Both the position numbers and the translations under genes were made by a program. The notes beneath the pieces were generated by a model. It was given only the letters and a program-made list of their open reading frames with translations, was not told the DNA's origin and did no database searches. Positions 20,962-56,514 of a stretch of 64,000 nucleotides of DNA are shown piece after piece. The stretch comes from Altererythrobacter sp. B11 (lineage in GTDB: Bacteria > Pseudomonadota > Alphaproteobacteria > Sphingomonadales > Sphingomonadaceae): assembly GCF_003569745.1 (NCBI RefSeq), contig NZ_AP018498.1, positions 2,829,001 through 2,893,000 on the forward strand, given 5' to 3'. Numbering within the stretch: the first letter of the stretch is position 1; each line of letters opens with the position of its first letter.

Positions 20962-21025
20962 TGAGGTGGTCCCGGAAATCTGGACAGGGTGCTAAGCTAA
21001 TCCCGACCTGAGGAATGGACGGGAA

Positions 21026-22197: not shown

Positions 22198-22257
22198 TCA
22201 CATCGGGGATTAGCTTAACTTCGTCGCCGACCTGTCCAAGAAGGCGGAACCACCTCA

Positions 22258-23458: not shown

Positions 23459-24781
23459 TCAGCCCTTATCAGAAGCTTCAGCAGCCAGACAAAACCTTGC
23501 GATCAACCCCGTGAGTAATGCAGCCAACAGCATCGGCACGGCGAACACGAGAAAGCTGGCAAACAGGCTGTGACCGGAACTCAATGCGACCCCGCCAACA
23601 GCCGGACCTGCGACAGCGCCTAGCCGACCAATGCCAATCCCCCAGCCGACTCCGGTCGTCTTGAACTCGGCCGGATAAAGTTTTGCGGCAACCGCATACA
23701 GGCCGCCAAAGCCGCCTTGGACAAGAAAGCCGATTGCGAACAGGCCGATGAAAAAGATCAACACGGGCGTATGAACAGCGCCGAACGCCAGCATCGCCAA
23801 GAAGGCGAGGATGAAGAAGCCGACGATCAGCAAAGCCAACTCGAACTTGGCAGCAATCCAGCCCAGGCAGAATAGCCCGACTAAAGCCCCGAGATTGAAC
23901 ACGGCGCTTCCGTTAATGGCGGTTGCCAGCGAGTAGCCAGCGGCGATGGCCAGGCGAGGTATCCAGCTCGTCAAAAAATATAGCGTGAAGAACGAAGCGA
24001 AGAACGCGCCCCAGAGCAGGATTGTGCCAAGACGATAACTTGAACCAAATAGCTTGGCAATTGGCGGCGATTTCGACGCTGAGCGCCCTTCGGGCAGTGC
24101 CTCGATTTCAGCAAGCCGCTGCGCCGCAAGGTACCGGTTTGCCTTGGCGAGCGCTCCGCGTGGCTGCCGCGCCAACAGGAAATCGATCGATTCCGGCAGG
24201 GCTACCAAGACGACCGGTACAATGATTGCCGATGCCAGGCCGATCAGCACGAACATACCTTGCCAACCAAACTCCGGAATGATCCAGCTGCCTGCCAGAC
24301 CTGCCAGGGTGGCACCGGCAGGATAGCCAGCCGTGGCCGTTGTCACAGCAAACGCCCTGTAGCGATCAGGTGCATATTCCGAAGCCAGGGCAGCGACACT
24401 GGCCAGGATCGAGCCGATACCCAGTCCCGTAATCACCCGCAGCACTGCCAGCATCGTCAATGACGTTGCCAGCGCCGACAGCAGCATTCCCAATCCGATA
24501 ATGACCGATGCGAGGACGATGACCTTCTTACGCCCATAGGTATCGGCAAAAGGAGCCAGGAACAGCGCCCCCAGTGTCATTCCGGCCAGCCCACTGCTGA
24601 ACACCAGCCCGAAAGCTGCGTCGCTAACCTGCCATTCTTCAGTCAGGACGGGTGCCACGAATGAAACGACCAAGACGTCTGCGCCGTCCAGCATGTTCAG
24701 GACAAAGCAAAGAATCAGAGTCCTGACCTGAAGGGCACTCCAATTCGACACTGCTACAACTCCTCTAGCCCAACCAACCAT
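23459..24781 (-). CDS. MFS transporter, aromatic-acid/sugar-type symporter
   Basis: Major facilitator of 440 residues with twelve hydrophobic helices. The first helix contains LDGADVLVVSF, like the conserved DGxD motif of the aromatic acid:H+ symporter branch. The loop between helices 2 and 3 is ADTYGRKKV, the MFS signature, and a cytoplasmic loop lies at about 200-245. It is last in the ten-gene minus-strand catabolic operon, 50 bases after the esterase gene. In context it probably moves the aromatic aglycone or a released acid across the inner membrane; the substrate is inferred. Confidence 0.8.
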   Translation of the reverse strand: MVGWARGVVAVSNWSALQVRTLILCFVLNMLDGADVLVVSFVAPVLTEEWQVSDAAFGLVFSSGLAGMTLGALFLAPFADTYGRKKVIVLASVIIGLGMLLSALATSLTMLAVLRVITGLGIGSILASVAALASEYAPDRYRAFAVTTATAGYPAGATLAGLAGSWIIPEFGWQGMFVLIGLASAIIVPVVLVALPESIDFLLARQPRGALAKANRYLAAQRLAEIEALPEGRSASKSPPIAKLFGSSYRLGTILLWGAFFASFFTLYFLTSWIPRLAIAAGYSLATAINGSAVFNLGALVGLFCLGWIAAKFELALLIVGFFILAFLAMLAFGAVHTPVLIFFIGLFAIGFLVQGGFGGLYAVAAKLYPAEFKTTGVGWGIGIGRLGAVAGPAVGGVALSSGHSLFASFLVFAVPMLLAALLTGLIARFCLAAEASDKG

Positions 24782-24832
24782 TCGCACATTTGCGTCAGGC
24801 CGTTGACGTCGCGGTCAATGGCCGGACGCTGG

Positions 24833-25723
24833 TCACTGAAGCTCAAGCCAGTTCAGGTACTGCTCGATCCAGCCGTCGCTGGTGGTCCCCTGCGGCCTCA
24901 TGCCAAAGCCGTGCCCACCGCCGGAGAACAGATGGAACTCCACCCGATTGCTTTCGGCCAACCAGGATTGCAGTGGAGCAAGCCCGGATTGTTGGAACAG
25001 CGGATCATCGACCGAAATCGCATAGAACAGGTCAGGACGAGCCCCGCTCCCGACGGGCTCCGGCAGCGGCGGGTAAATCAGCGCAACATGATCAAGCAGT
25101 TCGGCTTGAGAGCGTTCTTCCAGCAGGCGAATTGTAGTGTGTGCACCGGCTGAGAACCCGATTACTCCCAAGCTGTCTGGATCGATGTTCAAATCATCAG
25201 CCATCGCTCGCACGACATCAATCGAGCTTGCCAGGTCATCCATGGCCATAGGTTGTTCGACCAAGGTGCCGCTGCCGAGACTTCCAAAGCTCGCCAGCAC
25301 TTCCGCCGCAAATTCGTCGGCATCTCTTGGAGTGCTGTTGTGCCGGTATTTCAGGACCAGCGCTGTGTAGCCGTTCGCTGCAAGTCGGTTGGCCACATCG
25401 ATGCCTTCACTCCCGAAGGAAACAAACGAATATCCGCCCCCCGGTACGACGATGACCGCTCGACCATTTGACCTGCCGACGGGCGGTCGAACAACATACA
25501 ATGCCGGACGACTTACGTTGCGCACCCACATCTGGTTAAAGACGCGGTTCCACTGTTCGGTATCTTGCGTGTCGGCGGGCACGGTTGGGAGCGGAATTGT
25601 CTCACCTATGAATGCGGGAAGTTCTTGTGCCACCAACGGTGGAAATGAAGGCCCGGCTTCCTGAGCGTAGGCAGGTGCTATGCATAGGCTTGCAGCCAAG
25701 GCAAGAATTTGTGTGAAGCGCAT
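24833..25723 (-). CDS. secreted alpha/beta-hydrolase (esterase-like)
   Basis: Protein of 296 residues with a clear signal peptide (hydrophobic core, cleavage after AYAQ near residue 21) and an alpha/beta-hydrolase fold of the acetylxylan-esterase/BD-FAE type. The oxyanion motif PGGGYSFVS is near residue 113, the nucleophile elbow GFSAG near 188, and GGGHGFG near 270 supplies the histidine. It likely hydrolyses an acyl ester on a sugar or aromatic in the periplasm. It lies between an isomerase gene and an MFS gene in the operon, suggesting that the natural glycoside may be acylated. Confidence 0.8.
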   Translation of the reverse strand: MRFTQILALAASLCIAPAYAQEAGPSFPPLVAQELPAFIGETIPLPTVPADTQDTEQWNRVFNQMWVRNVSRPALYVVRPPVGRSNGRAVIVVPGGGYSFVSFGSEGIDVANRLAANGYTALVLKYRHNSTPRDADEFAAEVLASFGSLGSGTLVEQPMAMDDLASSIDVVRAMADDLNIDPDSLGVIGFSAGAHTTIRLLEERSQAELLDHVALIYPPLPEPVGSGARPDLFYAISVDDPLFQQSGLAPLQSWLAESNRVEFHLFSGGGHGFGMRPQGTTSDGWIEQYLNWLELQ

Positions 25724-25737
25724 GCCTTCCTCCCGGA

Positions 25738-26796
25738 CTAGTCCGTTATTCCCATCACGCGCTTGTTGAGGTCGCGGTCTGCGTTACCCGCAGCGAAGTC
25801 GTCGAAGGCGTGTTCGGTGACGCGGATGATGTGATCGGCGATGAATGGCGCGCCTTCAGCCGCGCCTTGCGCCGGGTGCTTCAGCGCGCACTCCCATTCG
25901 AGCACGGCCCAACCGGCGAAATCGTACTGCGCCATCTTCGAAAAGATGCCCGAGAAATCGACTTGCCCGTCACCCAGCGAGCGAAAACGACCAGCCCGAT
26001 CTACCCATGACTGGTAGCCGCCGTAGACGCCCTGCCGCCCGGTCGGGTTGAACTCCGCATCCTTCACATGGAAGCACTTGATGCGCTCGTGATAGATATC
26101 GATGTAGTCGAGGTAGTCGAGGCATTGCAGCACGAAGTGGCTGGGATCGTAAAGGATGTTCGCGCGCGGGTGGTTGCCGGTGCGCGCGAGGAACATCTCA
26201 TAGGTCACGCCGTCGTGCAGGTCTTCGCCGGGATGGATCTCGTAGGCGATATCAACGCCGCAATCGTCGAAGTGATCGAGGATTGGCAGCCAGCGACGCG
26301 CCAGTTCGTCGAAGGCGTCTTCCACCAGCCCAGCGGGGCGCTGCGGCCAGGGATAGATGTAGGGCCACGCCAGCGCGCCGGAGAAGCTGGCGTGGGCGTT
26401 GAGGCCCAGCCGCTTGCTGGCCGTGCCTGCCTTCTTCACCTGGTCGACCGCCCATTCCTGCCGCGCCTTGGGATTGCCGCGCACGTGTTCTGCCGCAAAG
26501 CCATCGAACATGGCATCGTAGGCCGGATGCACGGCGACCAGCTGACCTTGCAAGTGAGATGAAAGCTCGGTGATTTCGAGACCATGCGAGGCGGCGACAC
26601 CTGTCACTTCATCGCAGTAGTCTTGGCTGTCGGCAGCCTTCATCAAGTCGAACAAGCGTCCGTCCCAGCTGGGGATTTGGATACCCTTGTAGCCTAGGCC
26701 CGAAACCCATTCGCAGATCGCGTCGAGCGAATTGAACGGGGCTGAGTCGCCCGCGAACTGGGCGAGGAAGATCGCCGGTCCCTTGATCGTTTTCAT
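25738..26796 (-). CDS. sugar phosphate isomerase/epimerase family protein
   Basis: Xylose-isomerase-like TIM barrel of 352 residues. Metal-site strands are recognisable as AYEIHPGEDLH, ILYDPSHF, KCFHVKDAEF and LEWECALK, giving the Glu, Asp, His and Glu ligands typical of the family. ATG 26796 has GGGAGAG upstream; the longer frame to 26916 is not homologous. It overlaps no neighbour but follows the oxidoreductase gene by 17 bases. It probably isomerises, epimerises or hydrates a keto-sugar formed from the 3-oxidised glycoside. This is a different subfamily from the TIM-barrel protein at 29157-30287. Confidence 0.85.
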   Translation of the reverse strand: MKTIKGPAIFLAQFAGDSAPFNSLDAICEWVSGLGYKGIQIPSWDGRLFDLMKAADSQDYCDEVTGVAASHGLEITELSSHLQGQLVAVHPAYDAMFDGFAAEHVRGNPKARQEWAVDQVKKAGTASKRLGLNAHASFSGALAWPYIYPWPQRPAGLVEDAFDELARRWLPILDHFDDCGVDIAYEIHPGEDLHDGVTYEMFLARTGNHPRANILYDPSHFVLQCLDYLDYIDIYHERIKCFHVKDAEFNPTGRQGVYGGYQSWVDRAGRFRSLGDGQVDFSGIFSKMAQYDFAGWAVLEWECALKHPAQGAAEGAPFIADHIIRVTEHAFDDFAAGNADRDLNKRVMGITD

Positions 26797-26813
26797 GTGC
26801 TCTCTCCCGCTTC

Positions 26814-27932
26814 TCAGACAGTCAGGTCCACCCAGCCAGCCTCGTTGGCGCTGGCGCGGACGGCGGTATCGATGAAAGCCATGCCGCGCAGCCCTTCGGC
26901 AATGCCCGGCAAGCATGGCGCATCCTCACCGCGCAAGGTGGCGGCAAAGTCACGGTAGATATTGGCGAAGGCTTCGAGGTAGCCTTCGGGATGGCCGCCC
27001 GGCGTGCGGGTTCGCGCCGCGGCGAGCGGACCGACCGCGTCGGTACCGGTCTGGATCGTCTCTATCCGGCCATCGGCGTGGAGTATCTCCAGCCGGTTCG
27101 CATCGTCCTGCTGCCAGCGCATCCCGGCCTTGTCGCCATAGACGCGGATGCGCGTGCCGTTGAGCTCGCCCACTTCGATCTGGCTCGCCAGCAGCACGCC
27201 GCGCGCACCGTTGGCGAAGCGCAGCAATACGGTGCAATCGTCGTCCAGCGTACGACCGGGAACCACCGCATCAAGGTCGCCCAACAGGCGCGTGACTTTC
27301 TCCCCGGTAACAAATTCGGCGAGGTTGAAAGCGTGCACACCGATGTCGCCGATGCACCCGCCCGCGCCCGCCTGCGCCGGATCGACACGCCATTCGGCCT
27401 GCTTGCCCTCAGCGGGTTGCGACAGCCAGCCTTGAGGGTATTCGACCACGACCTTGCGCAAGGTCCCGATAGCGCCAGCAGCGATCCGCTCGCGCATTTC
27501 GCGGACCAGTGGATAGCCGGTGTAGGTGAAGGTGACACCGAAGGGCAGGCCCGCTTTGGCGACCGTTCCTGATAGTTCTTGCGCTTCAGCCAGCGTTGCG
27601 GTCAATGGCTTGTCTGTCATGACCGGAAGACCCGCCGCCAGCGCAGCGCGAGCAGACGGCAGGTGGTTGTGGTTCGGCGTAACGATCGAGACGAAATCGA
27701 TCCCGTCCTCGCGAGCCTTCTCGGCAGCGAACATCTCGTCCAGCGAGCCGTAAGCGCGGGCCGGATCGATCAGATACTGAGCGGCAGCTGAGCTCGATCG
27801 ATCAGCGTTTGAAGAAAACACACCCGCGACCAATTCGATTTCGCGATCAAGCTCGGCAGCGAAGCGGTGCACCGGACCGATAAAGGCTCCCGGTCCGCCA
27901 CCGATCATGCCCATCCTGAGACGACGCATCAT
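26814..27932 (-). CDS. Gfo/Idh/MocA-family oxidoreductase
   Basis: NAD(P)-dependent sugar dehydrogenase of 372 residues. The N-terminal Rossmann domain starts with GMIGGGPGAFIG, the sugar-pocket lysine is in TDKPLT at about 107-111, and the catalytic segment GGCIGDIGVHAFNLAEF is in the C-terminal domain. In other C-glycoside loci a relative of this family oxidises the sugar at C3 or returns 3-keto-glucose to glucose. Either role is possible here because a GMC oxidase is also encoded. The start overlaps the lactonase stop by 4 bases. Confidence 0.9.
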   Translation of the reverse strand: MMRRLRMGMIGGGPGAFIGPVHRFAAELDREIELVAGVFSSNADRSSSAAAQYLIDPARAYGSLDEMFAAEKAREDGIDFVSIVTPNHNHLPSARAALAAGLPVMTDKPLTATLAEAQELSGTVAKAGLPFGVTFTYTGYPLVREMRERIAAGAIGTLRKVVVEYPQGWLSQPAEGKQAEWRVDPAQAGAGGCIGDIGVHAFNLAEFVTGEKVTRLLGDLDAVVPGRTLDDDCTVLLRFANGARGVLLASQIEVGELNGTRIRVYGDKAGMRWQQDDANRLEILHADGRIETIQTGTDAVGPLAAARTRTPGGHPEGYLEAFANIYRDFAATLRGEDAPCLPGIAEGLRGMAFIDTAVRASANEAGWVDLTV

Positions 27933-29152
27933 TTTGCTCCTCTTCCACTATGTGTCGGCTCGAGTCTGGCAAATGCTACGAACGCGGGATCAGGCACCGT
28001 CGCCTGCGCCAACAAGGTGAGTGCGCCAGAGCGATCGCAAACCGAATATGATGCCACGAGGTCAGCCGGTCGGTCGGCGACCATCAGAAAGCTTCCACCC
28101 GGGGCAAAAGCAAAGCTGCGCGCTGCTACGCCAGGGTGCAGGGACTTGGCCAGCGGGACCGAGCCTTGGCGTTCGAGTTGGCCGTCCTGCCCGATTGCAA
28201 ACCAGGCGATGCAGTCCTCGCCGCGATTATTGGCATAGACGAACCCGCCCTGTGGATGGACCCGAATTTCAGCAGGTTCATTCGGGCCGTCATAGCCGGA
28301 CGGCAAGGTGCTCACCTGAGACAGTTCTTCGAGCATTCCCGTTGCGGCATCAAACGCCAGCGTTGCTATCGTGGACGCGAACTCGCAGGTCGCGAAAGCA
28401 AGGCCGGTTACCGGATCGAAGGCGAGATGGCGCGGCCCGGTTTCTTCGGCCAATTGCAGAACGAAGACCTCCTCCAGCTTCGCGCTTAGCTGGAAGACGT
28501 GAATGCGGTCTGTGCCCTTGTCGCAGACCAGCAGGAACTCGCCCGAGGGATCGATCACAGCGCTGTGTGCATGCGGGCCGGACTGCGCGTGACCGCCGTT
28601 TTGCGGCGAAGAATTGGGGTCTTTGCCATGGCCTGAAAAGAGGTGAACGTCGCTAGCCGGTTCGATCCGACCATCCGCTGTCAGCGGAAAGACCGAAACC
28701 GTAGAGTCATCGTAGTCGAAACGAGTTTCCCAATGGCCATCGTCGCGCTGAACCAGTTTCTCGACGTGGGTGAAGCCCGCATGGTTGGCGCTGACGAGCA
28801 AGCCTCGCTTCGGGTCGTGCGCAAGGTAGCAGGGGAAGGCACCAAGAGATGGTCGGGAACCAAGGTGGGCAAGTTCCCCAGATTCAAGATCGAGCCTCAG
28901 CGCATGGACCGAAGACGCTCTGCCCACCGGCCCGCGCCCATCGGTCTTGACCTCGTTCACGGCGAACAAGGTTTCGGTCGCCGGCGAATAGACAAGGTAG
29001 CCAGCTTCTTGCGGCACGGAATGGTGACCGAGTTGTTCGATATTCCGGCCATCATCGCTGATTTCGAAGGTGTAGATGCCGCCCGGACCACCGCCTTCAC
29101 CAGCGTAAGTGCCGACAAAAGCAAGAAGACGATTTGCAGGCCCTTCCGCCAC
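27929..29152 (-). CDS. lactonase, 7-bladed beta-propeller (6-phosphogluconolactonase-like)
   Basis: Lactonase-family beta-propeller of 407 residues, cytoplasmic. Family marks include FVGTYAG near the N-terminus, the long acidic loop with HAHSAVIDPSGEF, GPRHLAFDP, PAEIRVHPQGGFVYANNRG and ARSFAFAPGGSFLMVA. It should open a sugar lactone. The start is a GTG five bases after the stop of the upstream isomerase gene. A lactone would arise if the released 3-keto sugar or glucose is oxidised at C1, so it fits a sugar-oxidising branch of this operon. Confidence 0.87.
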   Translation of the reverse strand: MAEGPANRLLAFVGTYAGEGGGPGGIYTFEISDDGRNIEQLGHHSVPQEAGYLVYSPATETLFAVNEVKTDGRGPVGRASSVHALRLDLESGELAHLGSRPSLGAFPCYLAHDPKRGLLVSANHAGFTHVEKLVQRDDGHWETRFDYDDSTVSVFPLTADGRIEPASDVHLFSGHGKDPNSSPQNGGHAQSGPHAHSAVIDPSGEFLLVCDKGTDRIHVFQLSAKLEEVFVLQLAEETGPRHLAFDPVTGLAFATCEFASTIATLAFDAATGMLEELSQVSTLPSGYDGPNEPAEIRVHPQGGFVYANNRGEDCIAWFAIGQDGQLERQGSVPLAKSLHPGVAARSFAFAPGGSFLMVADRPADLVASYSVCDRSGALTLLAQATVPDPAFVAFARLEPTHSGRGAK

Positions 29153-29156
29153 GATA

Positions 29157-30287
29157 TTAGGCGTCCACCGGAACGCGCAGCAGTCGGCGCAGCATTTCGT
29201 GATGGCGGTGGACCTGCTCCACCTCGTCCATCATTTCAGCGCGCGTGCGGTCCTGCGAGTAGCGCTGACCTTCATATTCGGTGTTGATGTAGCCGGTGAA
29301 GCCACCTTGTTGCAGAGCGCGAAGGGCACCTTCATAATCGATGGCGATGTCCTGATACTCGCCGGGTCGCCCCGGGATTTCGGACATATGATTGAACTTG
29401 CCGTGGCAGCTGACGACGTGTCCGGCAAGCTGGCGCATCGTATCAAGCCCGGTGTTCGACTGCATGATCGCCTCGGCGACGACGATGTAGTCAAGCTCGC
29501 CGGGTTGCTCGACGCGCGCATCGGCGAATGCTTTGAGTTCCGAAAACGGGCCAGCCAGTTCCGCCACAGCTTCGCCAGTGGTCAGGTAGCGTTTGAAAGC
29601 TGCACGCAGATTGCCCGCAGTCTCCAGCGACACGGCGTCGAGTGGAAACGGCCCTCTGTCCTCGCGCAGGAGCAGGGACAGTTCCACCGCTGCCGCGCTT
29701 GCTTGCGGGCTTGCACCGCGACGTTCGTATTGCGCCAGAAGGACTTCAGTGGGGCGAAAACCAAAAATGCCGAAATCAGGCACGATGCCCAAACGGTCAG
29801 TCCCTTCGCGCTCGGCAAATTCAATGATCTCGGTAACCTGCCTGCCTTCCAGTTTCATCGGCTGGTGCACTTCCTTGCCCAGCCTGAGGTCCAGCTTTTC
29901 GGCAGTCGGCAGAGCCATCACCATGACCTCGAACGGACAGGTGGAAAGCACGCGAACATTGCTGAAGCCCAGCCGCTTGGCGAGATGCATGTCGCGAATG
30001 AGGCGATCCGCCACTTCCTCGTAGGACATGACATGATCGCGGAACTGGAGGACGTCGAAAGACACATCCATCGTTACCGGAACCGTGCCGTACCGTTCCA
30101 TCCACCCGAACCACTGGCGCACGAACTCCTCGCCCGGATCGGGGTAACGCAGGCTCATTTCATCAACGATCTCGATACCGTCCGCGCCCGGCAGGTTCTC
30201 GCCCACTTCGCGGATCTGGTCTTCAAGCGTCAGCTCGCGAAAGAACTGTGACTGCTGGTAGCTATAGAGTGAGACACCGAGCTTCAT
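29157..30287 (-). CDS. C-glycoside deglycosidase alpha-like subunit (TIM barrel)
   Basis: Xylose-isomerase-like TIM-barrel protein of 376 residues. Candidate metal and catalytic residues are E139 and H141 in GKEVHQP, D171 in VPDFGIFGF, H295/H300 in CHGKFNH and E337 in NTEYEG. Its ATG overlaps the stop of the DUF6379 gene by 4 bases. That same pairing of a sugar-isomerase-fold subunit with a DUF6379 subunit defines the heteromeric C-glycoside deglycosidases (DgpB/DgpC, CarB/CarC types), which cleave the C-C bond of 3-keto-C-glycosides by metal-assisted elimination. I infer the same reaction; substrate is unknown. Confidence 0.8.
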   Translation of the reverse strand: MKLGVSLYSYQQSQFFRELTLEDQIREVGENLPGADGIEIVDEMSLRYPDPGEEFVRQWFGWMERYGTVPVTMDVSFDVLQFRDHVMSYEEVADRLIRDMHLAKRLGFSNVRVLSTCPFEVMVMALPTAEKLDLRLGKEVHQPMKLEGRQVTEIIEFAEREGTDRLGIVPDFGIFGFRPTEVLLAQYERRGASPQASAAAVELSLLLREDRGPFPLDAVSLETAGNLRAAFKRYLTTGEAVAELAGPFSELKAFADARVEQPGELDYIVVAEAIMQSNTGLDTMRQLAGHVVSCHGKFNHMSEIPGRPGEYQDIAIDYEGALRALQQGGFTGYINTEYEGQRYSQDRTRAEMMDEVEQVHRHHEMLRRLLRVPVDA

Positions 30288-30757
30288 GCGAGCACCTGTT
30301 CGTTGGGCTGGAGTTCGAGTTCGTAGGTTACCACCTGCGGTGTCTTGTCAGAACCCGCGCCGGTGCCAGGTTCGGGTGGCGCTTCCACCCACGCTTCGTC
30401 CGTGGGCAGGTAACCATAGGCCGCGATCACGCATTGCTGGAAATCGATCACATGCGTGCCGGGCTCAAGGCCGCCGGGCTTGCGAACGTGGAGTATGGCT
30501 TCGTCGTCATAGTCCCAGTGCTCCCAGACAGCCTTTTTGATCTCCTCGAAGCTGCGTGGCGGCTGGCCATTGACCTCGAACGTCTGCGCGTCACGCGGGA
30601 AGACGGTGCCATCAACGCACAGGTAGTAGCCGGTGTGCAGCGAGAGGAAAACGCCGCGATAGTTCGCGATCCGGACGGCCATCGAAAAGCCGACTACCTC
30701 GCCATCTTCGACGTCGTTGCGGAGGCTATCCTGGCGGATAAGGTAGTTATCAAACAT
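30284..30757 (-). CDS. DUF6379 protein, C-glycoside deglycosidase beta-like subunit
   Basis: Protein of 157 residues with the family opening FDNYLIRQDSLRN, then GFSMAVRIANYRGVFLS, VDGTVFPRD, and a late KPGGLEPGTHVID followed by an aromatic strand. This beta-sandwich family is the small subunit of C-glycoside deglycosidases. It is translationally coupled on both sides: its start overlaps the MFS gene by 8 bases and its stop overlaps the TIM-barrel gene by 4. The C-terminal tail (about residues 130-157) is acidic and proline-rich. Family assignment is from memory of the motif pattern. Confidence 0.82.
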   Translation of the reverse strand: MFDNYLIRQDSLRNDVEDGEVVGFSMAVRIANYRGVFLSLHTGYYLCVDGTVFPRDAQTFEVNGQPPRSFEEIKKAVWEHWDYDDEAILHVRKPGGLEPGTHVIDFQQCVIAAYGYLPTDEAWVEAPPEPGTGAGSDKTPQVVTYELELQPNEQVLA

Positions 30758-32039
30758 TGTAGTCTTCCTTGGGCTTCTCGCCCGCGGGCTTGGATGGAAA
30801 CAGGGCGATCCAAATCACGGTAGTGGCGACCGCAAGGCCGACCGGAACCCACCACATTGGGACCCATGCGCTCGCTCCTTCAGCCACGTTACGCGTGACG
30901 AAGGCCGCGAAAAGCTGGCCAGACAAGGCCGATCCAATCGCAGCACCAAAGCCGGAGATCATCAGGATCAACCAGCTCTGAGCCTGCGCAGCCAGACGCG
31001 CAGGGGCAATCTTTGCGATGAACATGGCGGCGATCACGATGAAGTAGTCGTTGCAGATGCCGTGCAGCGCGACGCCAACGACAGCGAAAGTGTTGGAACC
31101 ATCGGCTGCCAGAATGAAAAGCAGGAAGCGCACGCCCCACATGGCCATCCCGAACAGCATCGCCGCCTTCATGCTGATCCGCGCCAGGACGAAGGGAATG
31201 GTGACGATGAAGAGCACTTCGGACAATTGCCCAAGTGCCAACACGCCTGCGACATTCTCGAACCCCAGCGCACCAAGATATGGCGAAGCAAAGGCGTTGT
31301 AGAATGCCAGCGAAATCGAAGTGAACAGAGTGCATCCCATCAGCACCGCGAACTTGCGATCACGGAAAAGGCTGAGCGCATCGATGCCGATGACGTCTCC
31401 AAGCGAGAACCTTGCGCCTTTGGCCGGAGGGGGGCTGGCGGGGAGCGTAAGTGCATAGATCGCGAGCGCAACCGCACCTGCGGCGGCGACATAAAATACA
31501 TTGGTCGAAGCGGAGAAGCCGAGTGCACCGACTGTAAGGCCTGCCACGACCCATCCAAGCGGACCGAAAACCCGCACATAGGGGAAGATCCGCTGCTGCA
31601 CGCCAAGTTCAGCCAGAGCGAGCGAGTTCACCAGTCCAAGCGTCGGCTGGAAGAACAGCATATGTACGAAGATCATCGCCAGCGTCGTTCCAGTCGCGCC
31701 GCTGGCAATGAGATTGGGGATCGCGAAGAGGACGATCGCCCCGGCCACGTGCAGCAATGACAGCAAGACGCGTGGCGGCAGGTAGCGGTCACCGATCGCA
31801 CCCATGAAAAGCGGTGAGATGATCGCGGCGACTGCACTCAACAGATAGGCCTGCCCAATGATGTCGGCAGCGCCATTGGTCGCCAGCACCAGTCCCAGCG
31901 TTGCGAACCAAGCTCCGAAGACGAAGAACTCGAGGAGCATCATGGCGCTCAGCCGCATTGCAAGCGTGCGATCGCCTCCACTCAGGGGGATGACTTCGAG
32001 ATTGGCCTCGCTCGCCGGGGGTGTTGCAGGTCCTGCCAT
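30750..32039 (-). CDS. MFS permease, nucleoside:H+ symporter-like
   Basis: Transporter of 429 residues with twelve hydrophobic helices, resembling the NupG/XapB-like branch (first helix MRLSAMMLLEFFVFGAWF, then GDRYLPPR in the signature loop). ATG 32039 lies 12 bases after the GMC stop; the open frame further upstream is antisense to that gene. Between the GMC oxidase and the deglycosidase subunits, it is the likely inner-membrane importer for the glycoside that the TonB receptor brings through the outer membrane. The enzymes of the pathway lack signal peptides, so import before cleavage is expected. Confidence 0.82.
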   Translation of the reverse strand: MAGPATPPASEANLEVIPLSGGDRTLAMRLSAMMLLEFFVFGAWFATLGLVLATNGAADIIGQAYLLSAVAAIISPLFMGAIGDRYLPPRVLLSLLHVAGAIVLFAIPNLIASGATGTTLAMIFVHMLFFQPTLGLVNSLALAELGVQQRIFPYVRVFGPLGWVVAGLTVGALGFSASTNVFYVAAAGAVALAIYALTLPASPPPAKGARFSLGDVIGIDALSLFRDRKFAVLMGCTLFTSISLAFYNAFASPYLGALGFENVAGVLALGQLSEVLFIVTIPFVLARISMKAAMLFGMAMWGVRFLLFILAADGSNTFAVVGVALHGICNDYFIVIAAMFIAKIAPARLAAQAQSWLILMISGFGAAIGSALSGQLFAAFVTRNVAEGASAWVPMWWVPVGLAVATTVIWIALFPSKPAGEKPKEDYNV

Positions 32040-32050
32040 CGTGTCCTCGT

Positions 32051-33724
32051 CTAGAGCTCCCCGTTGGTCATTGCCTTTGCGGCATACTCGCCCGCACGCA
32101 GGCTCAACGCCATCAAGGTAAGAGTAGTGCCCGAGCAGCCGCTGGTTGCGAAGCTGCTGGCATCGGTCACGAAAACGTTCGGCGCGTCCCACAACTGGTT
32201 GTGCGGATTGAGCACCGACTTTGCCGGATCATCGCCCATGCGCGCGCCGCCGCTTTCGTGGATCGCGGCACCCATTGCCATGCTCTTGCGGAAATTGGTG
32301 CGGAACAGGAAACGGCTGAACCAGTCTGCTTCCGGGAAGGCGCCCTCCCCCTTTTCCTGCAAGCCCAGGTAGGAACCAACGAACTGGGTACCGAGGCCAG
32401 CCGCGGAAGCCATTTCGTCGATAGCCTCGACCTGGCGTGCGAGCATCGCCTTGTCGTTCTCGCCCATCGCACAGGCAATGTGCGGGATCGGCATGCCCCA
32501 CTTGTCCTTGCGGCGACGGTCGAGCGAGACACGGTTGTCCGCCTGCGGCAGCATTTCGCCGAACCCCATGATGCCGAACTTGGCAGGCTGGTCGTCCCGC
32601 GAGAAGAGCCTGCCGATGGTGCCCTGGAAGCCGAACCCGCGAATAAAGTCCGGGTCACTGCGATTGCCGAGGTTGGCGAAACGCGGAATGTAGACGCCGC
32701 CGCTCACGCCATAAAATGGATCAGGCTCGACAGTATCGTCTGCTTCCCAGCCGGTCCGACCGGGAACAGTGCCCATGATCATGCTCGGCAACTGATCCAT
32801 GAAATAGCGACCAAGGTTGCCAGAGGAATTGCCAAGCCCATCAGGATGACGGTCCGAGCTTGAATTAAGCAAAAGGCGCACCGTCTCGATCGCCGACGCG
32901 CCGACGAACACTGTGCGACAGCCTACCTGATGCACTTCGCGCGTTTGCCGATCGACAAACTCGACACCTGTCGCTTTCCCGGTCGTGGGATCAGTCACGA
33001 TCCGCCGCACCACCGCATCCGAGCGAACGTCGAGATTGCCGGTGTCGAGTGCCGCCTGAAGTGGTTGGGGAGTGCGCTTGATATTGGGCGGCATGTAGCG
33101 CCACGAGATCGCGTGGCGCTCCTCCCATTCATTCTCAACCTTCGATTTGAAGTCGGCTTCGGCCTCGGTCAGCTTCGACGGACCAGCATAGACTCCATCA
33201 GGAAGGTTGGGGATCCCGTCTTTGCAGCCACGAATGCCAAGGGTCTCTTCGACACGTGAGTAGTATGGCGCGAGATCGTCATAGCCAATCGGCCAGTCTT
33301 CCCCGTAACCGTCCCGGCTGGCTGCCTTGAAGTCTGCATCCGACCAGCGCATCAGCACCCGGCCATATGTGTGCAGACGCCCGCCAAGCTGCTTGCCCCT
33401 GATCCACAGGTACGGCTTGCCGGGAGGGGTCGAATAGGGATGCTCGCGATCGTTCACGAACAGGTGGCGCTGATGCTGGCTGTATAGAGCAACGCGCGAT
33501 TGCAGCGGCTGGCCATCGAGAGCCGCACGGATGCGCGCCCACAGCTGGATACCTTTTTCACGCGGTCCCTTGCCGTTGACCGGGAAGTCTTCCATGGTGA
33601 TGGCTCGACCGGCTTCCAGCAACAGGACATCCAGCCCGTGTCGCGTCAGTTCCATCGCGGCGAAGCTTCCCGCCGCCCCGGAACCGACAACAATCACATC
33701 ATAGGCCGATTTCATGTCCATCAT
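32051..33724 (-). CDS. GMC-family FAD oxidoreductase, probable sugar 3-oxidase/dehydrogenase
   Basis: FAD enzyme of 557 residues, without signal peptide. The dinucleotide site is VVGSGAAGS (about 12-20) and the GMC C-terminal segment has HESGGARMG with H489 as candidate catalytic base. The usual Asn-Pro-Thr that carries the second catalytic residue is replaced by SGTTLT in the sequence SGCSGTTLTLMAL. In characterised pathways a cytoplasmic GMC enzyme (CarA type) oxidises C-glycosides at the sugar C3 before C-C cleavage. Its place directly before the permease and DUF6379 genes supports that role; choline- or gluconate-type activity is less likely. Confidence 0.83.
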   Translation of the reverse strand: MMDMKSAYDVIVVGSGAAGSFAAMELTRHGLDVLLLEAGRAITMEDFPVNGKGPREKGIQLWARIRAALDGQPLQSRVALYSQHQRHLFVNDREHPYSTPPGKPYLWIRGKQLGGRLHTYGRVLMRWSDADFKAASRDGYGEDWPIGYDDLAPYYSRVEETLGIRGCKDGIPNLPDGVYAGPSKLTEAEADFKSKVENEWEERHAISWRYMPPNIKRTPQPLQAALDTGNLDVRSDAVVRRIVTDPTTGKATGVEFVDRQTREVHQVGCRTVFVGASAIETVRLLLNSSSDRHPDGLGNSSGNLGRYFMDQLPSMIMGTVPGRTGWEADDTVEPDPFYGVSGGVYIPRFANLGNRSDPDFIRGFGFQGTIGRLFSRDDQPAKFGIMGFGEMLPQADNRVSLDRRRKDKWGMPIPHIACAMGENDKAMLARQVEAIDEMASAAGLGTQFVGSYLGLQEKGEGAFPEADWFSRFLFRTNFRKSMAMGAAIHESGGARMGDDPAKSVLNPHNQLWDAPNVFVTDASSFATSGCSGTTLTLMALSLRAGEYAAKAMTNGEL

Positions 33725-33800
33725 CCTGTCGAGTTCCTAGTCCGGTACTAGGCCAGCCGCCACTGTTCTCCGGTTCAGGGAGTCCTGGAGGCTGGGCGGC

Positions 33801-33821
33801 ACCCGGACATGAGGTCCGGGT
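33801..33821 (-). terminator. intergenic hairpin between TonB receptor and GMC genes
   Basis: ACCCGGAC and GTCCGGGT form an 8-base stem with a 5-base loop in the 129-base gap. There is no strong U-tract. It may stabilise or partly terminate the receptor transcript and so set a different receptor-to-enzyme ratio. Confidence 0.4.
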
Positions 33822-33853
33822 TCCAGGGAGGAGAAGTAAGTCTCGGTGTGGGC

Positions 33854-36013
33854 CTAGAACTGGAAGCCAGCGCGCACGCCGTACTGGCGTGGATCTGTCA
33901 GCGTGAAAGCACCCAATTCAAACTGGCCAAGCAGCCTGTTGTCTTCCAGATTGCGCGCAAACGCCTGGATGAACCATGCGTCATCCGGAGCGAAATAGCC
34001 GAGTGTCAGGTCGGTGCGGGTATAATTTTCCTGCGCGATCTGGGCGCCGGTATTGCCATCGGTCACGACATAGGAGCTTGAGAACTTCAACGCGGCGCTG
34101 CCCGAAATCCGGCCACCATTGGCGAGCTCGAAATCCTGCGTGATGCCGATCCGGCCAGACCATTCAGGCGAACGGTCGAGCGGTGTACCAGCAAAGTTCA
34201 GGGTTGGATCGCTCTGTAGCGGGAAGAAATCGTTATATTCCGCATTGAGATAAGCGAGGCTGTAATCGATCTGCGTTCCGGGACCGAGACGCAGCCAACC
34301 TTCGGCTTCGAGTCCAACAATATCGGCACTCGGAATATTGCGCGTAACTTGGCCACCGGTCGACAGAACGAGGCCAAGCTGTAGATCCTTGTAGTCGTAC
34401 ATAAAGCCGGTCAGCGCGAAATACAGCGCTTCGTCGAGCACGGTACCCTTGATCCCGGCCTCATACGAGGTGATCGTTTCCGGCTGGTAGTAGAACGGCA
34501 CCGGAGAGACGTCGGCGGGAGAGCCATCGTTAAAGCCACCAGCCTTGTATCCGGTGGTGACGTTGGCGAATGCCAGAACGTCAGGGTTGAGGTCTGCTTC
34601 CAGTCCTACGCGCCAGGTAAACTTGTCACCTGAAATGCCGCCACCTGGATACGTTCCGTCAAAGATTGTGCGGCAATTGCCGGGTACGCTGCAAAAGCCT
34701 TCAGCTTGCAGGAAGTCTTGGTATCCCAGTCGGCGCTTCTTGTCGTCAGTATAGCGGAGGCCACCCGTTACCCGGAATCCGTCAACTAGCTCGTATGTCG
34801 CCTGACCAAAGACAGCAGCGGATTCGGCTTGGGTGTCGATATCGTAATCCAGAACAAAGCCGACGTTCACGAAGTCGAGGTTTGGTTGAACGTGCACTTT
34901 TTCCTTGAAGTAGTATGCCCCTACGACCCATTCCAGCGGTCCGCCACCGTTCGAGGCCAGCCGCAGTTCGTGAGACTGCTGGTTGCTGTCACCAACGTTC
35001 AGGAAGTCACCGTTTGAGGTAAACGGCACGAAGGGTGCCGGGATATCGTTGCGCGAAGCCCGGTCGCTGGCAGAGGTTTCGCGGTAGCCGAACAGGTAGG
35101 TGAGGTCGGCAAAGTCAAAGCCGTGGTTCAGTTCGACGGTTACGCCACCGGTATTGCGGCGACCGAAGGTATCGCGGCCCGGATTCTGGTACCGCAGGCT
35201 CTTGTCGTCGTTCTGGGCCAGCGCACGATCGAGAGCGATCGAACCGGCGCCACTGTTGCGCAGCCAGGCGTAGTCGCCCGATACGAACAAGTCGGTGGCA
35301 TCACCCAGTTCAGCACTGAGGCTGACACGCATCGCAAAGTCGTCCTGGCTGTCGAGCGGGTCGTTGCCGTCCTGAGTGGCCGTGAAGCCATCGTGACGGT
35401 TGTACGAACCAGCCACGCGTAGAGCCACTCCGTCGGCTAGCGGGGCGTTGATCATGCCATTCAGGCGAACGGTATCCCAGTTGCCGTACTCGGCTGAGCC
35501 AGAAGCTTCGAAATAGTTGCGCGGACGGGCGCTGATCACGTTGACCACACCGGCCGTGGCATTACGACCGTAAAGCGTACCCTGCGGCCCGCGAAGGACC
35601 TCAACCCGTTCAACGTCGAACATGGTCGCGTATTGGTCGGGGAAACGAGCGATGTAGATGCCGTTCAGGTTGAACGCAGTCGACGGGTCACCCTTGTCAG
35701 TGAAGTCAGCACTGGCCACGCCTCGAATGCTGAAACCGGCGACACCCACCTGGATGTTGGGCAGCACGTTGGGCAGATCGGTCGCGCTAGTGACGCCTTC
35801 CGACTGCAGTTCGTCGCCCGAAATCGCGACGATAGCGCCAGCGACATCTTCAAGCGCCTGCTCACGGCGGTTTGCGGTGACAACGATGGTGCCGCCAGAG
35901 CTGTCATCGCTGGCTGCTGCGCCGTCGACATTTTCTTGAGCAATTGCCGGAGCCGACACGGCCATAGCCACGCCGAGCGCGAGCGTAGAAATTCCGGTGC
36001 GAACAGAAAGCAT
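33854..36013 (-). CDS. TonB-dependent receptor
   Basis: Outer-membrane active transporter of 719 residues. A signal peptide ending AIAQE near residue 26 is followed by a TonB-box-like TIVVTANRREQ, a plug domain (DLPNVLPNIQV, RVEVLRGPQGTLYGRNATAG) and a 22-strand barrel ending in a C-terminal aromatic (GVRAGFQF). It is first in the operon, with a GGGAGG ribosome site. It most likely imports the aromatic glycoside substrate rather than iron, judging by its catabolic neighbours and divergent ROK repressor. Confidence 0.92.
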   Translation of the reverse strand: MLSVRTGISTLALGVAMAVSAPAIAQENVDGAAASDDSSGGTIVVTANRREQALEDVAGAIVAISGDELQSEGVTSATDLPNVLPNIQVGVAGFSIRGVASADFTDKGDPSTAFNLNGIYIARFPDQYATMFDVERVEVLRGPQGTLYGRNATAGVVNVISARPRNYFEASGSAEYGNWDTVRLNGMINAPLADGVALRVAGSYNRHDGFTATQDGNDPLDSQDDFAMRVSLSAELGDATDLFVSGDYAWLRNSGAGSIALDRALAQNDDKSLRYQNPGRDTFGRRNTGGVTVELNHGFDFADLTYLFGYRETSASDRASRNDIPAPFVPFTSNGDFLNVGDSNQQSHELRLASNGGGPLEWVVGAYYFKEKVHVQPNLDFVNVGFVLDYDIDTQAESAAVFGQATYELVDGFRVTGGLRYTDDKKRRLGYQDFLQAEGFCSVPGNCRTIFDGTYPGGGISGDKFTWRVGLEADLNPDVLAFANVTTGYKAGGFNDGSPADVSPVPFYYQPETITSYEAGIKGTVLDEALYFALTGFMYDYKDLQLGLVLSTGGQVTRNIPSADIVGLEAEGWLRLGPGTQIDYSLAYLNAEYNDFFPLQSDPTLNFAGTPLDRSPEWSGRIGITQDFELANGGRISGSAALKFSSSYVVTDGNTGAQIAQENYTRTDLTLGYFAPDDAWFIQAFARNLEDNRLLGQFELGAFTLTDPRQYGVRAGFQF

Positions 36014-36116
36014 AGCATCCTCCCAAAGAGCGTTCGAGTTCTCAGTCTCGAATCACATCCAAATGTTGTGGGATCTTTCTACCGTTCGACCGTTCACACC
36101 CTCAATCTCTTTATTG

Positions 36117-36135
36117 TTCGCGTCTGGAGCGCGAA
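36117..36135. promoter_or_regulatory. inverted repeat in receptor/ROK divergent promoter region
   Basis: TTCGCG-N7-CGCGAA is a perfect 6+6 dyad midway between the two divergent starts. Its position makes it a candidate operator for the ROK regulator, which would then control both itself and the ten-gene operon. There is no independent evidence for binding. Confidence 0.45.
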
Positions 36136-36217
36136 TTTCGCTAAAACTGCAGAAGTCGGCGCTTGACCATTCGGATTTGGAACATAGAAATCAGAACCAA
36201 GTGGCAGGGTGGACGAG

Positions 36218-37447
36218 ATGGGCAAAACTCCTAATCGCACCGATCGGACCGCGAACGTCCAGTTGGTGCTCGATCATCTCAGGCAGAAAGGGCCATCGAC
36301 GCAGGCTGAGATCGCCCGCGCGACGAACCTGGCGCGAGCAACAGTCAACAATATCGTGCAAGCCCTGCGCGATCAGGGAACGCTCGAATACAACTGGAAG
36401 AACAAGCGTGAGGCGCTCGTTTCGCTTTCTTCTGCACGGGGATCGATCGTTTCCATCCTCGTGCATTCTGGCCAGGCCGAAGCAACCCTGTTCGACTTCC
36501 AGGTACAGGAGCGGATCACGCTCGATGTTGCGGCTCTCAGGAATCCGGATGACCGGATCGGCAGCCCCGAAGAAGTATTGCATGTAGCCAAGGGGGCCAT
36601 CGCGATCGGTGCCGCGCGCAATGCTCCCGTTTCTGGCATCTGCATCGCCATGGAAGGGCCTATCGAGCGGCGGTCAGGTATGATCGCCCGGTGGGCATGG
36701 CAACGCTATCCCGACTGGACCAACCTGCCCGTGTTCCAGCACTTCGATCGACATCTGCGTGTGCCATTGGTCGTCGACAACGACGCCAACCTCGCCGCAT
36801 TGGCTGAATGGATGTGGGGCGTCGGACAGGGCCACAACGACTTCGTCCATCTCACCTGCTCACAGGGCATCGGCGGGGGCATAATCATCGATGGCAAAAT
36901 CTATCACGGCGGCACCGGATTGGCCGGTGAGATGGGTCACATGGTGATCGAAGAAGATGGAGAGCTGTGCTTCTGCGGCAGCCGCGGCTGCCTCACCGGC
37001 TTCGCCTCAGAGCGCGCAATCTTGACGGCGCTTGGTAGCATGGACCACCGCAAGGACTCGCTCGATGAAGTTGTCGAGAGTGCCAAGGCTGGTGATGCCG
37101 CCTGTCAGAGGGTTCTCTACGAGGCGGGCGTCCACCTGGGACGTGCGCTTGCAACCGTTGTGCGGGTCCTTGGGCCAAGCATGGTTTCGCTAGGCGGTAC
37201 GCTAGGCGAGGCAGGCAGGTTCGTTTTCGACGGACTGCACTCGTCGCCGGAAATCATCAATCTCCGGGCGATCGGCACAGCTGCAGAGTTTCGCGCTTCC
37301 GAAGTTGGCAAGGATGCCGCCATGCTTGGCGGCGTCGCGGCGATCCTTGCGCAGATCAACCTCGGATTGGAACGGGTCGATCCATGGATGAAGAGCCCGG
37401 CCCCTGCGGCGAGTGAGAAAATATCGCCGGAGCCGGACTCTGACTGA
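36218..37447 (+). CDS. ROK-family transcriptional regulator
   Basis: Repressor-type ROK protein of about 409 residues. An N-terminal winged helix (TQAEIARATNLARATVNNIVQAL, near 25-50) is followed by a sugar-kinase-like ROK domain. This has DNDANLAALAEW, the SQGIGGGIIIDG glycine motif, and the zinc-binding CFCGSRGCL sequence typical of NagC/Mlc/XylR proteins. Such regulators release DNA on binding a sugar or sugar phosphate. A GTG at 36209 is an alternative start, but ATG 36218 has better spacing to AGGGTGG. Divergent from the TonB receptor, it is the obvious local regulator and implies that a sugar moiety is the inducer. Confidence 0.88.
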   Translation: MGKTPNRTDRTANVQLVLDHLRQKGPSTQAEIARATNLARATVNNIVQALRDQGTLEYNWKNKREALVSLSSARGSIVSILVHSGQAEATLFDFQVQERITLDVAALRNPDDRIGSPEEVLHVAKGAIAIGAARNAPVSGICIAMEGPIERRSGMIARWAWQRYPDWTNLPVFQHFDRHLRVPLVVDNDANLAALAEWMWGVGQGHNDFVHLTCSQGIGGGIIIDGKIYHGGTGLAGEMGHMVIEEDGELCFCGSRGCLTGFASERAILTALGSMDHRKDSLDEVVESAKAGDAACQRVLYEAGVHLGRALATVVRVLGPSMVSLGGTLGEAGRFVFDGLHSSPEIINLRAIGTAAEFRASEVGKDAAMLGGVAAILAQINLGLERVDPWMKSPAPAASEKISPEPDSD

Positions 37448-38964: not shown

Positions 38965-39704
38965 TGGGCAAAAAGGCCGTCGAAGTGATTGACAAGGGCT
39001 TCGCTGAGCCTTCCAATAAGCCCATGCAAAATGGTTCACTCGAAAACACCGTCAAGGAAATGATCCTTCGCGAAGACCTAGCTCCCGGCGAGCGCCTGAC
39101 CGAAGCCGGTCTGGCAGAACTCCTTGGCGTCTCGCGCACTCCCGTCCGCAGCTTGCTACCAATGCTCGCGGCACAGGGATTCCTGGAGCCAGTAGGGAAG
39201 CGCGGATACGTCGTTGCGAAATTCGGCGAGAAGGAAATCTTCGACGCGCTGGACTTGCGTGCCATGCTCGAAGGCTGGGCCGCGCGAAAGCTGGCAGAAG
39301 AAGGCGCCAGCGAAGAAGTCCTTGCCAAGCTGGACGAATGTCTGGCCGAAGGGGATCGCCTGTTCGACAAGGGCAGCTTCTCTCTGGACGACGAAAACCG
39401 CTACGGCAGCATGAACGAACGCTTCCACCGGCTTGTGATCGAAGCATGCACGTCGCCGATCCTGACGACCTTCATGGAGCGGCTCGAGCACGTGCCATTC
39501 GTCGCACCCTCGGTCATCGTCTTCGACCAGATCGGTCTACGCAAGGCATTCGAAATGCTGCACCGCGCCCACGGCTTCCACCACGCAATCGTCGATGCAA
39601 TCCGCGATCGCGACGGCGCACGCGCCGAGTTCCTCTTCCGCGAGCACGCCAATCATCAGCGTGTGAGCATGTTCGCCCGGCGGAAGGCGTCAGCGAGCGC
39701 TTAA
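38964..39704 (+). CDS. GntR-family regulator, FCD subfamily
   Basis: Regulator of 246 residues. The winged helix occupies about 25-90 (LTEAGLAELLGVSRTPVRSLLPML, then QGFLEPVGKRGYVV), and the helical FCD ligand domain follows, with FDALDLRAMLEGWAARKLA, NERFHRLVIEA and a metal-type histidine near the end (HANHQRV). FCD regulators usually sense small organic acids. The gene is divergent from the aryl O-demethylase and probably controls it through the two repeats in the gap. ATG 38964 lacks a ribosome site; ATG 39024 is an alternative that would still retain the helix-turn-helix. Confidence 0.85.
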   Translation: MGKKAVEVIDKGFAEPSNKPMQNGSLENTVKEMILREDLAPGERLTEAGLAELLGVSRTPVRSLLPMLAAQGFLEPVGKRGYVVAKFGEKEIFDALDLRAMLEGWAARKLAEEGASEEVLAKLDECLAEGDRLFDKGSFSLDDENRYGSMNERFHRLVIEACTSPILTTFMERLEHVPFVAPSVIVFDQIGLRKAFEMLHRAHGFHHAIVDAIRDRDGARAEFLFREHANHQRVSMFARRKASASA

Positions 39705-48762: not shown

Positions 48763-48847
48763 GTTGGATCTCCTGAAATGGCCTGACGACAGTTCCGTCG
48801 GTCAGTGCCGGAGATCCCGGAGCCCCCTCCGCTCTCTTTCCATGAAG

Positions 48848-48883
48848 GAAGCGGCCCCCCGGCATTTGCCGGAGGACCGCTTC
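48848..48883. terminator. intergenic hairpin between parB and ardC
   Basis: GAAGCGG and CCGCTTC, with an inner CCGGCA-TTTGCCGG stem, give a long interrupted hairpin of 36 bases. No U-tract follows on the minus strand. Possible attenuator or processing site. Confidence 0.5.
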
Positions 48884-48917
48884 ACGGTGGCGAGCAGCCG
48901 TTCCTGTCAGGAGGAGG

Positions 48918-56450: not shown

Positions 56451-56514
56451 TGAGGTGGTCCCGGAAATCTGGACAGGGTGCTAAGCTAATCCCGACCTGA
56501 GGAATGGACGGGAA

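Follow-up and report, generated by a model that had tools for sequence, protein, structure and literature searches.

The stretch of Altererythrobacter sp. B11 DNA analysed here (the window; 64,000 nucleotides, contig NZ_AP018498.1, G000:C1:2829001-2893000), which lies inside a 3.84-Mb single-contig genome, holds a gene cluster centred on a predicted C-glycoside deglycosidase (CGD), read here, with a probability of about 0.6, as serving the catabolism of bergenin or a very closely related compound. The operon comprises ten minus-strand genes (36013 to 23459), the first for a TonB receptor and the last for an AAHS-like permease; spacings are -8 to +45 bases, apart from one of 129 bases that separates the receptor gene from the GMC gene. 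A ROK regulator diverges from the operon. A first-pass annotation had described this operon under its divergent regulator, and all eleven genes were recovered at the coordinates that it gave, with corrections to two gene starts. The interval that it delimited (23459-37447) excludes two genes that form part of the picture, one for an O-demethylase of the LigM type (37448-38821) and one for a GntR/FCD regulator, whose end is at 39704. The features are as follows:

29157..30287, minus strand: CGDA, predicted C-glycoside deglycosidase alpha subunit, a TIM barrel with inserted helices (PDB sequence matches, site residues, model)
30284..30757, minus strand: CGDB, predicted beta subunit, PF19906 (Pfam, PDB beta-chain matches, Tyr33)
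32051..33724, minus strand: GMC FAD oxidoreductase, putative C3 oxidation of the glucosyl group (family)
27929..29152, minus strand: LAC, seven-bladed beta-propeller lactonase (PF10282, model fold)
25738..26796, minus strand: HYD, 2-hydroxy-3-keto-glucal hydratase of the AtHYD type (598 bits to 8RO4)
26814..27932, minus strand: GFO, Gfo/Idh/MocA oxidoreductase, putative 3-keto-glucose reductase (family, co-occurrence with HYD)
24833..25723, minus strand: EST, alpha/beta hydrolase or esterase, probably exported (Pfam; signal-peptide-like N terminus judged by eye)
23459..24787, minus strand: AAHS-like MFS permease, putative uptake of an aromatic acid or glycoside (TIGR00895 score)
30750..32039, minus strand: MFS permease of the Nuc_H_symport family, putative inner-membrane glycoside uptake (Pfam; start corrected)
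33854..36013, minus strand: TonB-dependent receptor, putative outer-membrane uptake (Pfam)
36209..37447, plus strand: regulator of the ROK family that carries a winged helix, oriented divergently to the operon
37448..38821, minus strand: LigM-type tetrahydrofolate-dependent aryl O-demethylase, putative 4-O-methylgallate demethylation (match to LigM 5x1i; ATG start)
39024..39704, plus strand: GntR/FCD regulator divergent from ligM (start between 38802 and 39024)

The genes of the two lyase subunits overlap by 4 bases. CGDB reaches 121.7 bits (cut-off 27.6) against PF19906, the DUF6379 family, whose current Pfam name is CGDB, C-glycoside deglycosidase beta subunit, and it matches beta chains of solved C-deglycosidases, WD-40 repeat proteins being also listed with no single stretch significant. 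CGDA matches eight CGD alpha sequences in the PDB (best 8qvc, 163 bits), besides two chance YopM matches with E values of 0.37 and 0.84, and the chains matched by both proteins belong to the same solved complexes. In AgCGD2, Glu147, Asp179, His269, Lys271 and Glu305 are described as metal ligands, and His149 with Glu307 as catalytic (Mori et al., PMC8563793); CGDA carries E139, D171, H295, K297 and E337 at the former positions and H141 and E339 at the latter. These residues are invariant over 57 aligned rows, with the exception of the metal-ligand His, which is Gln in 22 of them (e.g. in loci L072, L035, L054 and L061). Tyr33 of CGDB falls, by alignment offset and with no printed alignment to DgpB behind the equivalence, at the position of PuCGE Tyr39beta, reported as specifically important for C-C cleavage (PMC10628242, PMC13273386). 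The CGDA model (pLDDT 83.6, six sequences) retrieves exclusively CGD alpha chains at Foldseek PDB ranks 1-16, the nearest solved subunit, that of Deinococcus aerius, being 29-30% identical. The model has helices intercalated between strands at residues 181 to 290, which probably form a helical lid, as judged from secondary structure only, a feature that EuCGD is described as lacking (PMC8563793). Thus, by all the sequence and structure tests applied, the pair is very probably a C-glycoside deglycosidase, yet one remote from those solved. The proposal that a DUF6379 protein and a TIM barrel make up this architecture is borne out by the family match, the solved-chain matches, the site residues and the alpha fold, and C-glycoside degradation is well supported when the neighbourhood is added to them.

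CGDB proteins were detected in 24 of 396 genomes sampled from the window's order, and deglycosidases are therefore not rare in it. The subfamily of the window lyase was found at E 1e-60 in 2/397 genomes of the window's family (its own and the draft G409, where it is split over two contigs), not being found at that threshold in G398 and G441, of the same genus; at 1e-70 it appeared, among 398 genomes of the phylum, in its own genome only. A peptide-pattern scan of named genomes provided five further loci, from Sphingobium lactosutens (L068), Stakelama flava (L069), Novosphingobium mathurense (L070), Amycolatopsis sacchari (L071) and Actinoplanes sp. RD1 (L072), and plasmid records another three, from Novosphingobium resinovorum pSA2 (L086), Niallia sp. 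Man26 (L087) and Pantoea piersonii p174224 (L088). The subfamily occurs in 5/268 genomes of the Amycolatopsis carrier's family and in 1/270 of the Actinoplanes carrier's, the carrier being counted each time. With four new actinobacterial loci (G1211, G1264, G1147 and G1027), 14 subfamily loci were considered, spanning Pseudomonadota, Actinomycetota and one Bacillota. Nine of their alpha subunits form one side of a branch with support 100/99 among the 57 rows, G409 and the four new loci being placed in the subfamily by 62-79% identity and not by the tree.

As controls, 36 other sphingomonad CGD loci were used (37 fetched, minus L051, the same locus as L070), several of them coming from one genome and a few truncated where their contig stops; sites whose only CGDB match was a weak, second one were not included as separate loci. 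To call a gene present, tblastn was run with one or two queries for it. The putative C-C-cleavage Tyr is kept in all nine subfamily rows and in 35 of the 36 controls. Subfamily beta subunits are distinguished by an insertion of ~20 residues, with 45-52 residues after the FQQ column versus 24-30 (39 in one) in the controls, and all nine contain a GxGAGSDK stretch. A loop of AgCGD2 near this region is described as sitting close to the aglycone (PMC8563793), and by analogy the insertion may lie close to it as well. Separately, 11 of 13 weak CGDB matches (40-56 bits) have a strong match within about 13 kb on the other strand. Some sphingomonad loci (L036, L037, L039, L041, L043, L045, L046, L052, L053, L062 and L064) also encode another CGDA-like protein, which is divergent, bears an EWEG motif, forms an 11-row clade and may represent a further, uncharacterised lyase type.

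The lyase pair, the GMC enzyme and the MFS permease recur together in 12 further loci, with the lyase pair alone in the thirteenth, that of Niallia, so this gene set is not a chance assembly; in those 12 the GMC relatives show 54-70% identity and the Nuc_H_symport relatives 52-66%. In 12 of the 14 loci, and in none of the 36 controls, CGDA has a window-type PF10282 lactonase as its neighbour. An aryl O-demethylase gene lies within 16 kb in 12/14 loci versus 1/36 controls (9/14 versus 1/36 when an equal 10-kb flank is applied), while gallate-pathway genes accompany 6/14 loci, five at the 10-kb flank, versus 0/36. Apart from one LigM (45%, in L061), the 36 controls gave no match for lactonase, DesB, LigK, tautomerase, MetF or PurU. 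For the four new actinobacterial loci the content was predicted in advance, and all four fit, with a lactonase adjoining CGDA, an O-demethylase within 18 kb and a long beta-subunit tail, whose motif is GAGSDK in three and GAGSEK in G1211; three of them closely resemble L071, so they do not amount to four independent trials. These comparisons also bear on the suggestion that the operon is unusually complete and a new variant. Relatives of the TonB receptor occur in 26 of the 36 controls, of the GMC enzyme in 13, of the Gfo/Idh/MocA enzyme in 13 and of the hydratase in 12, and uptake together with two oxidoreductases is therefore not new; the suggestion holds for the lactonase. What is distinctive is this lactonase, together with the O-demethylase beyond the delimited interval and the gallate genes of the relatives.

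The window LigM (466 bits to LigM 5x1i) is a full-length GcvT-like protein that keeps Arg122 and Tyr247, Phe replacing Tyr31; we take all three positions to have functional roles in LigM, Tyr247 presumably being the catalytic one. The same Phe and a one-residue deletion nearby are shared by its cluster relatives, and Arg122 is kept in the sphingomonad ones. These differences could stem from a shift in the methoxy position, but they may also be meaningless. LigM is the O-demethylase in the window, L069, L070, L071, G1264, G1147 and G1027, while VanAB, a Rieske system unrelated to LigM, takes its place in L068, L086, L088, L072 and G1211. MetF and PurU, which would recycle the tetrahydrofolate of LigM, lie beside it in six loci (L069, L070/L152, L071/L115 and three of the four new ones), and relatives of the GntR/FCD regulator (72-73%) are present in L068 and L086. 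Cluster LigMs form two groups, sphingomonad and actinobacterial, the non-cluster paralogue L104 joining the latter at 98/94. Considering these groups, the placement of L104 and the unrelated VanAB, recruitment of O-demethylation probably happened on several occasions, and it seems to be the function, not one single gene, that was recruited. Within the control locus L061 (10585-13474), a LigM (45%) with the usual Tyr31, Arg122 and Tyr247 directly adjoins the deglycosidase, a hint of a methoxylated aglycone in another CGD subfamily.

Downstream of demethylation, a gene of L070 adjoining metF and ligM reaches 516 bits to the SYK-6 gallate dioxygenase DesB (3wku); DesB is present in L068, L069, L070 and L086, and 4-oxalomesaconate tautomerase with LigK in L086, L072 and G1211. 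In the window's genome a gallate dioxygenase homologue lies far from the cluster (G000:C1:3722211-3723458), so that genes for the C-C lyase, the lactonase, the aryl O-demethylase and the opening of the gallate ring are all present in this genome, the last one unlinked. A single origin of the linked gallate dioxygenases was also considered; the tree splits them, with starred branches forcing two origins, but a single clade survives the approximately unbiased (AU) test (p 0.058), so the claim is limited to two divergent lineages.

This neighbourhood is difficult to accommodate if the operon serves a flavonoid, xanthone or anthraquinone C-glucoside (puerarin, orientin, mangiferin, carminate), as had been proposed first, with LigM lying nearby by chance or through regional clustering and serving general lignin-type aromatic catabolism. 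Such substrates are those on which described CGDs act (PMC8563793, PMC12724307), and since the genome contains two further LigM copies, finding one within 10 kb is not impossible. Nonetheless, O-demethylases are linked in 12/14 loci versus 1/36 controls and by non-homologous enzymes, six loci contain gallate-specific genes, no flavonoid ring-degrading gene is named in the annotation around L086 and L088, and the lactonase has no step in pathway schemes of this kind. We consider such a substrate improbable, the lactonase, the O-demethylase and the relatives' gallate genes pointing instead to bergenin.

LAC scores 253 bits against PF10282 and its model (pLDDT 86.2) is nearest to 6-phosphogluconolactonase-like proteins and to the periplasmic gluconolactonase PpgL, at 25-28% identity. 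These relatives would suit an enzyme acting on a sugar lactone, derived for instance from 3-keto-glucose or glucose, with the rest of the pathway as proposed for bergenin. Oxidation, elimination, hydration and reduction, however, produce no sugar lactone, and the lactonase is tied to the subfamily (12/14), remaining unmatched in 36/36 controls, 12 of which share the hydratase and Gfo pair; a sugar lactone as substrate is therefore conceivable but rather unlikely. From its context, LAC is better read as opening the lactone of bergenin or an acyl-enol ester produced by cleavage. EST, by tblastn, has no match in the 13 other subfamily loci and hence falls outside the shared core; it possibly removes acyl groups from acylated substrates, such as acylated bergenins, which are natural products.

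Regarding uptake, relatives of the TonB receptor reach 49-65% in L068, L069, L070 and L086, and just 27% in G409. The likeliest start of the Nuc_H_symport permease is the ATG at 32039, not 32192. The AAHS-like designation of the other permease stands as a likeness (346.5 bits) that stays below the curated TIGR00895 line of 418.55.

On the sugar side, the GMC enzyme lacks an evident signal peptide, in agreement with its earlier description as cytoplasmic. Its best PDB relatives are fructose and glucose dehydrogenases (109 to 100 bits), while 7dve and 8qve, of the CGOx/pyranose-oxidase group, score 42 and 32 bits; 7dve belongs, we presume, to the CarA group. The enzyme thus lies outside that sequence group, and its context suggests a C-glycoside oxidase-like role. 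In L154 (8978-17378, a Croceicoccus marinus plasmid), genes for a deglycosidase, a GH3 protein, a Gfo protein, a hydratase, a gluconate 2-dehydrogenase subunit 3 protein and a GMC enzyme are consecutive, which suggests that some other loci use a dehydrogenase of two subunits as the oxidant. HYD, with its gene start corrected to 26796, aligns over residues 1-350 of 352 with the solved 2-hydroxy-3-keto-glucal hydratase 8RO4 (598 bits), the source of which we take to be Agrobacterium tumefaciens; it is therefore a hydratase homologue and not the second TIM-barrel isomerase previously annotated. GFO is distant from the DgpA chains 9m3d, 7xr9 and 9m37 (33, 30 and 26 bits) and reaches 333 bits with 3v5n. 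A DgpA of the gut type was dropped as candidate C3 oxidant on account of these low scores. Since GFO is so far from DgpA and accompanies HYD in 12/36 other sphingomonad CGD loci, reduction of 3-keto-glucose is its likely job, which would follow the order of oxidation, elimination, hydration and reduction described by Bitter et al. (PMC10628242).

The same pair of enzymes raises the question of whether the substrates are instead O-glucosides of methoxylated benzoic acids (e.g. glucosyringic or glucovanillic acid), processed by oxidation and elimination at the C-O bond. PuCGE is reported to eliminate 3-keto O-glucosides too, and the Agrobacterium pathway that employs this kind of hydratase is an O-glucoside pathway (both PMC10628242); the HYD/GFO pair also occurs in one locus without an annotated DUF6379 gene. 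Such a system would leave the lactonase devoid of substrate, though, and the Agrobacterium O-glucoside lyase is described in that source without a beta subunit, whereas the clade here keeps the C-C-cleavage Tyr of that subunit in 9/9 members (as do 35/36 controls). An O-glucoside pathway is, consequently, regarded as quite improbable, on a comparison in which the O-demethylases covered were LigM and VanAB.

Bergenin is the preferred reading because the substrate must be a C-glucoside, hold a lactone and leave a methoxylated aromatic acid convertible to gallate. It possesses a lactone ring and the free ortho hydroxyl required by the CGD mechanism. It is described as the C-glucoside of 4-O-methylgallic acid (PMC10788031, PMC11053098). 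From the families, conserved residues, clade and gene linkage observed, a route can be proposed, of which we infer the substrate, every reaction, the order of steps and the electron acceptor of the GMC enzyme. Bergenin would enter via the TonB receptor and the permeases, and the GMC flavoenzyme would oxidize C3 of its glucosyl ring; CGDA/CGDB would then abstract the C2 proton, and the ensuing beta-elimination would break the C-C bond and release the aromatic ring. Either the lactone would be opened before this cleavage or the enol ester afterwards, in both cases by the propeller lactonase. The hydratase would convert 2-hydroxy-3-keto-glucal to 3-keto-glucose, and the Gfo/Idh/MocA enzyme would return the latter to glucose. 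On the aromatic side, LigM would demethylate 4-O-methylgallate to gallate, to be opened by a gallate dioxygenase, whose gene is elsewhere in the window's genome and adjoins the cluster in four relatives. We give even odds to a broader proposal, namely a dedicated bergenin-mineralising pathway that unites a new lyase subfamily, with a beta insertion shaped for a carboxylated, lactonised gallate aglycone, a bergenin lactonase and 4-O-methylgallate demethylation, apparently recruited three times (two LigM lineages and VanAB) across Pseudomonadota and Actinomycetota.

Several points weigh against bergenin. Its methyl group is para to the carboxyl, while LigM is described for vanillate and 3-O-methylgallate, and actinobacterial cluster LigMs have His in place of Arg122. 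The loci share descent, so the Fisher p values (7e-10 for the lactonase; 9e-9 for the O-demethylase with any flank and 7e-6 with equal flank; 2e-4 for gallate genes with any flank and 0.004 for DesB alone) are too small and overstate independence. Furthermore, the O-demethylases of L072, L088 and G1211 lie beyond the 10-kb flank given to the controls, and a more distant Rieske protein (27-31%) occurs in 9/36 controls. Two of the 14 loci show no O-demethylase in view: that of Niallia (L087), which has no lactonase, GMC or O-demethylase within 15 kb, and that of G409, a draft genome in which the contig stops close to PurU and the PF10282 protein beside CGDA is a different one. Gallate dioxygenase, MetF and PurU are unmatched in the 64-kb window, and the alpha subunit of L072 has Gln at the metal-ligand His. 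Sugar steps are not uniform either, the AtHYD-type pair being found in the window and G409 and a mixture in Pantoea, while L068-L072, L086 and three of the four new loci carry a HYD2/GFO2 pair 29-33% similar to that of the window, and G1211 also a different pair (26% and 48%). CGD enzymes are, in addition, reported to cleave 3-keto O-glucosides (PMC10628242). Dorea sp. MRG-IFC3, a puerarin degrader, is reported not to have converted bergenin (PMC10772555), which does not settle the substrate here.

Comparison with known systems places the cluster in relation to several of them. PuCGD/DgpBC, CarBC, AgCGD, PurBC and the CGDs of Deinococcus aerius and Microbacterium testaceum share with it an alpha subunit built as a TIM barrel, a beta subunit of PF19906, the residues of the metal and catalytic sites and the model fold, while low alpha-subunit identity to the solved CGDs, a clade of its own, the beta insertion and the linkage to lactonase and O-demethylase set it apart. 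The Agrobacterium tumefaciens pathway (GlycDH, AtOGE, AtHYD, Gfo) resembles it in the hydratase and the adjoining Gfo/Idh/MocA gene and differs in its single-chain AtOGE, the window beta-eliminase being, by sequence, of the heterodimeric C-glycoside type. With the soil CarA/PurA systems it has in common a GMC-superfamily FAD enzyme as presumed C3 oxidant, although the one in the window is nearer to fructose/glucose dehydrogenases than to the CGOx/pyranose-oxidase group. Gut Dgp/Dfg clusters use the same elimination enzyme family, their oxidant being the Gfo/Idh/MocA protein DgpA, distant from GFO. The syringate/gallate pathway of Sphingobium SYK-6 offers the LigM-type O-demethylase and the DesB-type dioxygenase (DesB in the window's relatives); SYK-6 LigM, however, has Tyr31 where the window has Phe, and the window LigM is tied to a C-glycoside cluster, not to lignin monomers. 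The SYK-6 enzyme is described as acting on vanillate and, with DesA, on the route from syringate to gallate (PMC6888825).

As for the surroundings, two identical 1296-base insertion sequence (IS) copies in direct orientation (window 20962-22257 and 56451-57746), with TGAGGTGGT at both ends, flank a 34-kb segment bearing the operon. A possible 3-base target duplication (ccc) accompanies the second copy, none being obvious at the first. A YobI-type P-loop NTPase frame (PF20693, 22255-23211) terminates within the last three bases of the IS copy and was apparently cut by it. An integrated mobile element beside the operon is suggested by two tyrosine recombinases encoded next to each other, together with an antirestriction protein of the ArdC type and a ParB-like one (window 40489-42974 and 47821-50990). 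A conserved operator was also sought in the ROK-receptor intergenic region; the window repeat TTCGCG-N7-CGCGAA has no similar repeat in L068, L069, L070 or L086, and the candidate was rejected.

Homologues of PurABC have already been reported in Pseudomonadota (Kumano et al., PMC12724307), and deglycosidases in the phylum are therefore already known. Among the open-licence literature matches listed, no report was found of a bergenin-degrading gene cluster, which is weak evidence of absence, nor of CGDs associated with lactonase, O-demethylase and gallate genes. Our results are best described as a new subfamily, and a variant pathway, of C-glycoside degradation, for which bergenin is the likeliest substrate.

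C-glycosides withstand hydrolysis, and their route back to the carbon cycle is poorly known. In the studies considered here, deglycosidases were assayed with C-glucosides of the flavonoid, xanthone, chromone or carminate type, and the cluster supplies a candidate substrate, an enzyme set and a growth test. It also predicts O-demethylases for the para-methoxy group of gallate. Considering that the reverse reaction is reported for PuCGE (PMC13273386), this lyase subfamily may run in reverse as well, towards C-glucosyl gallates.

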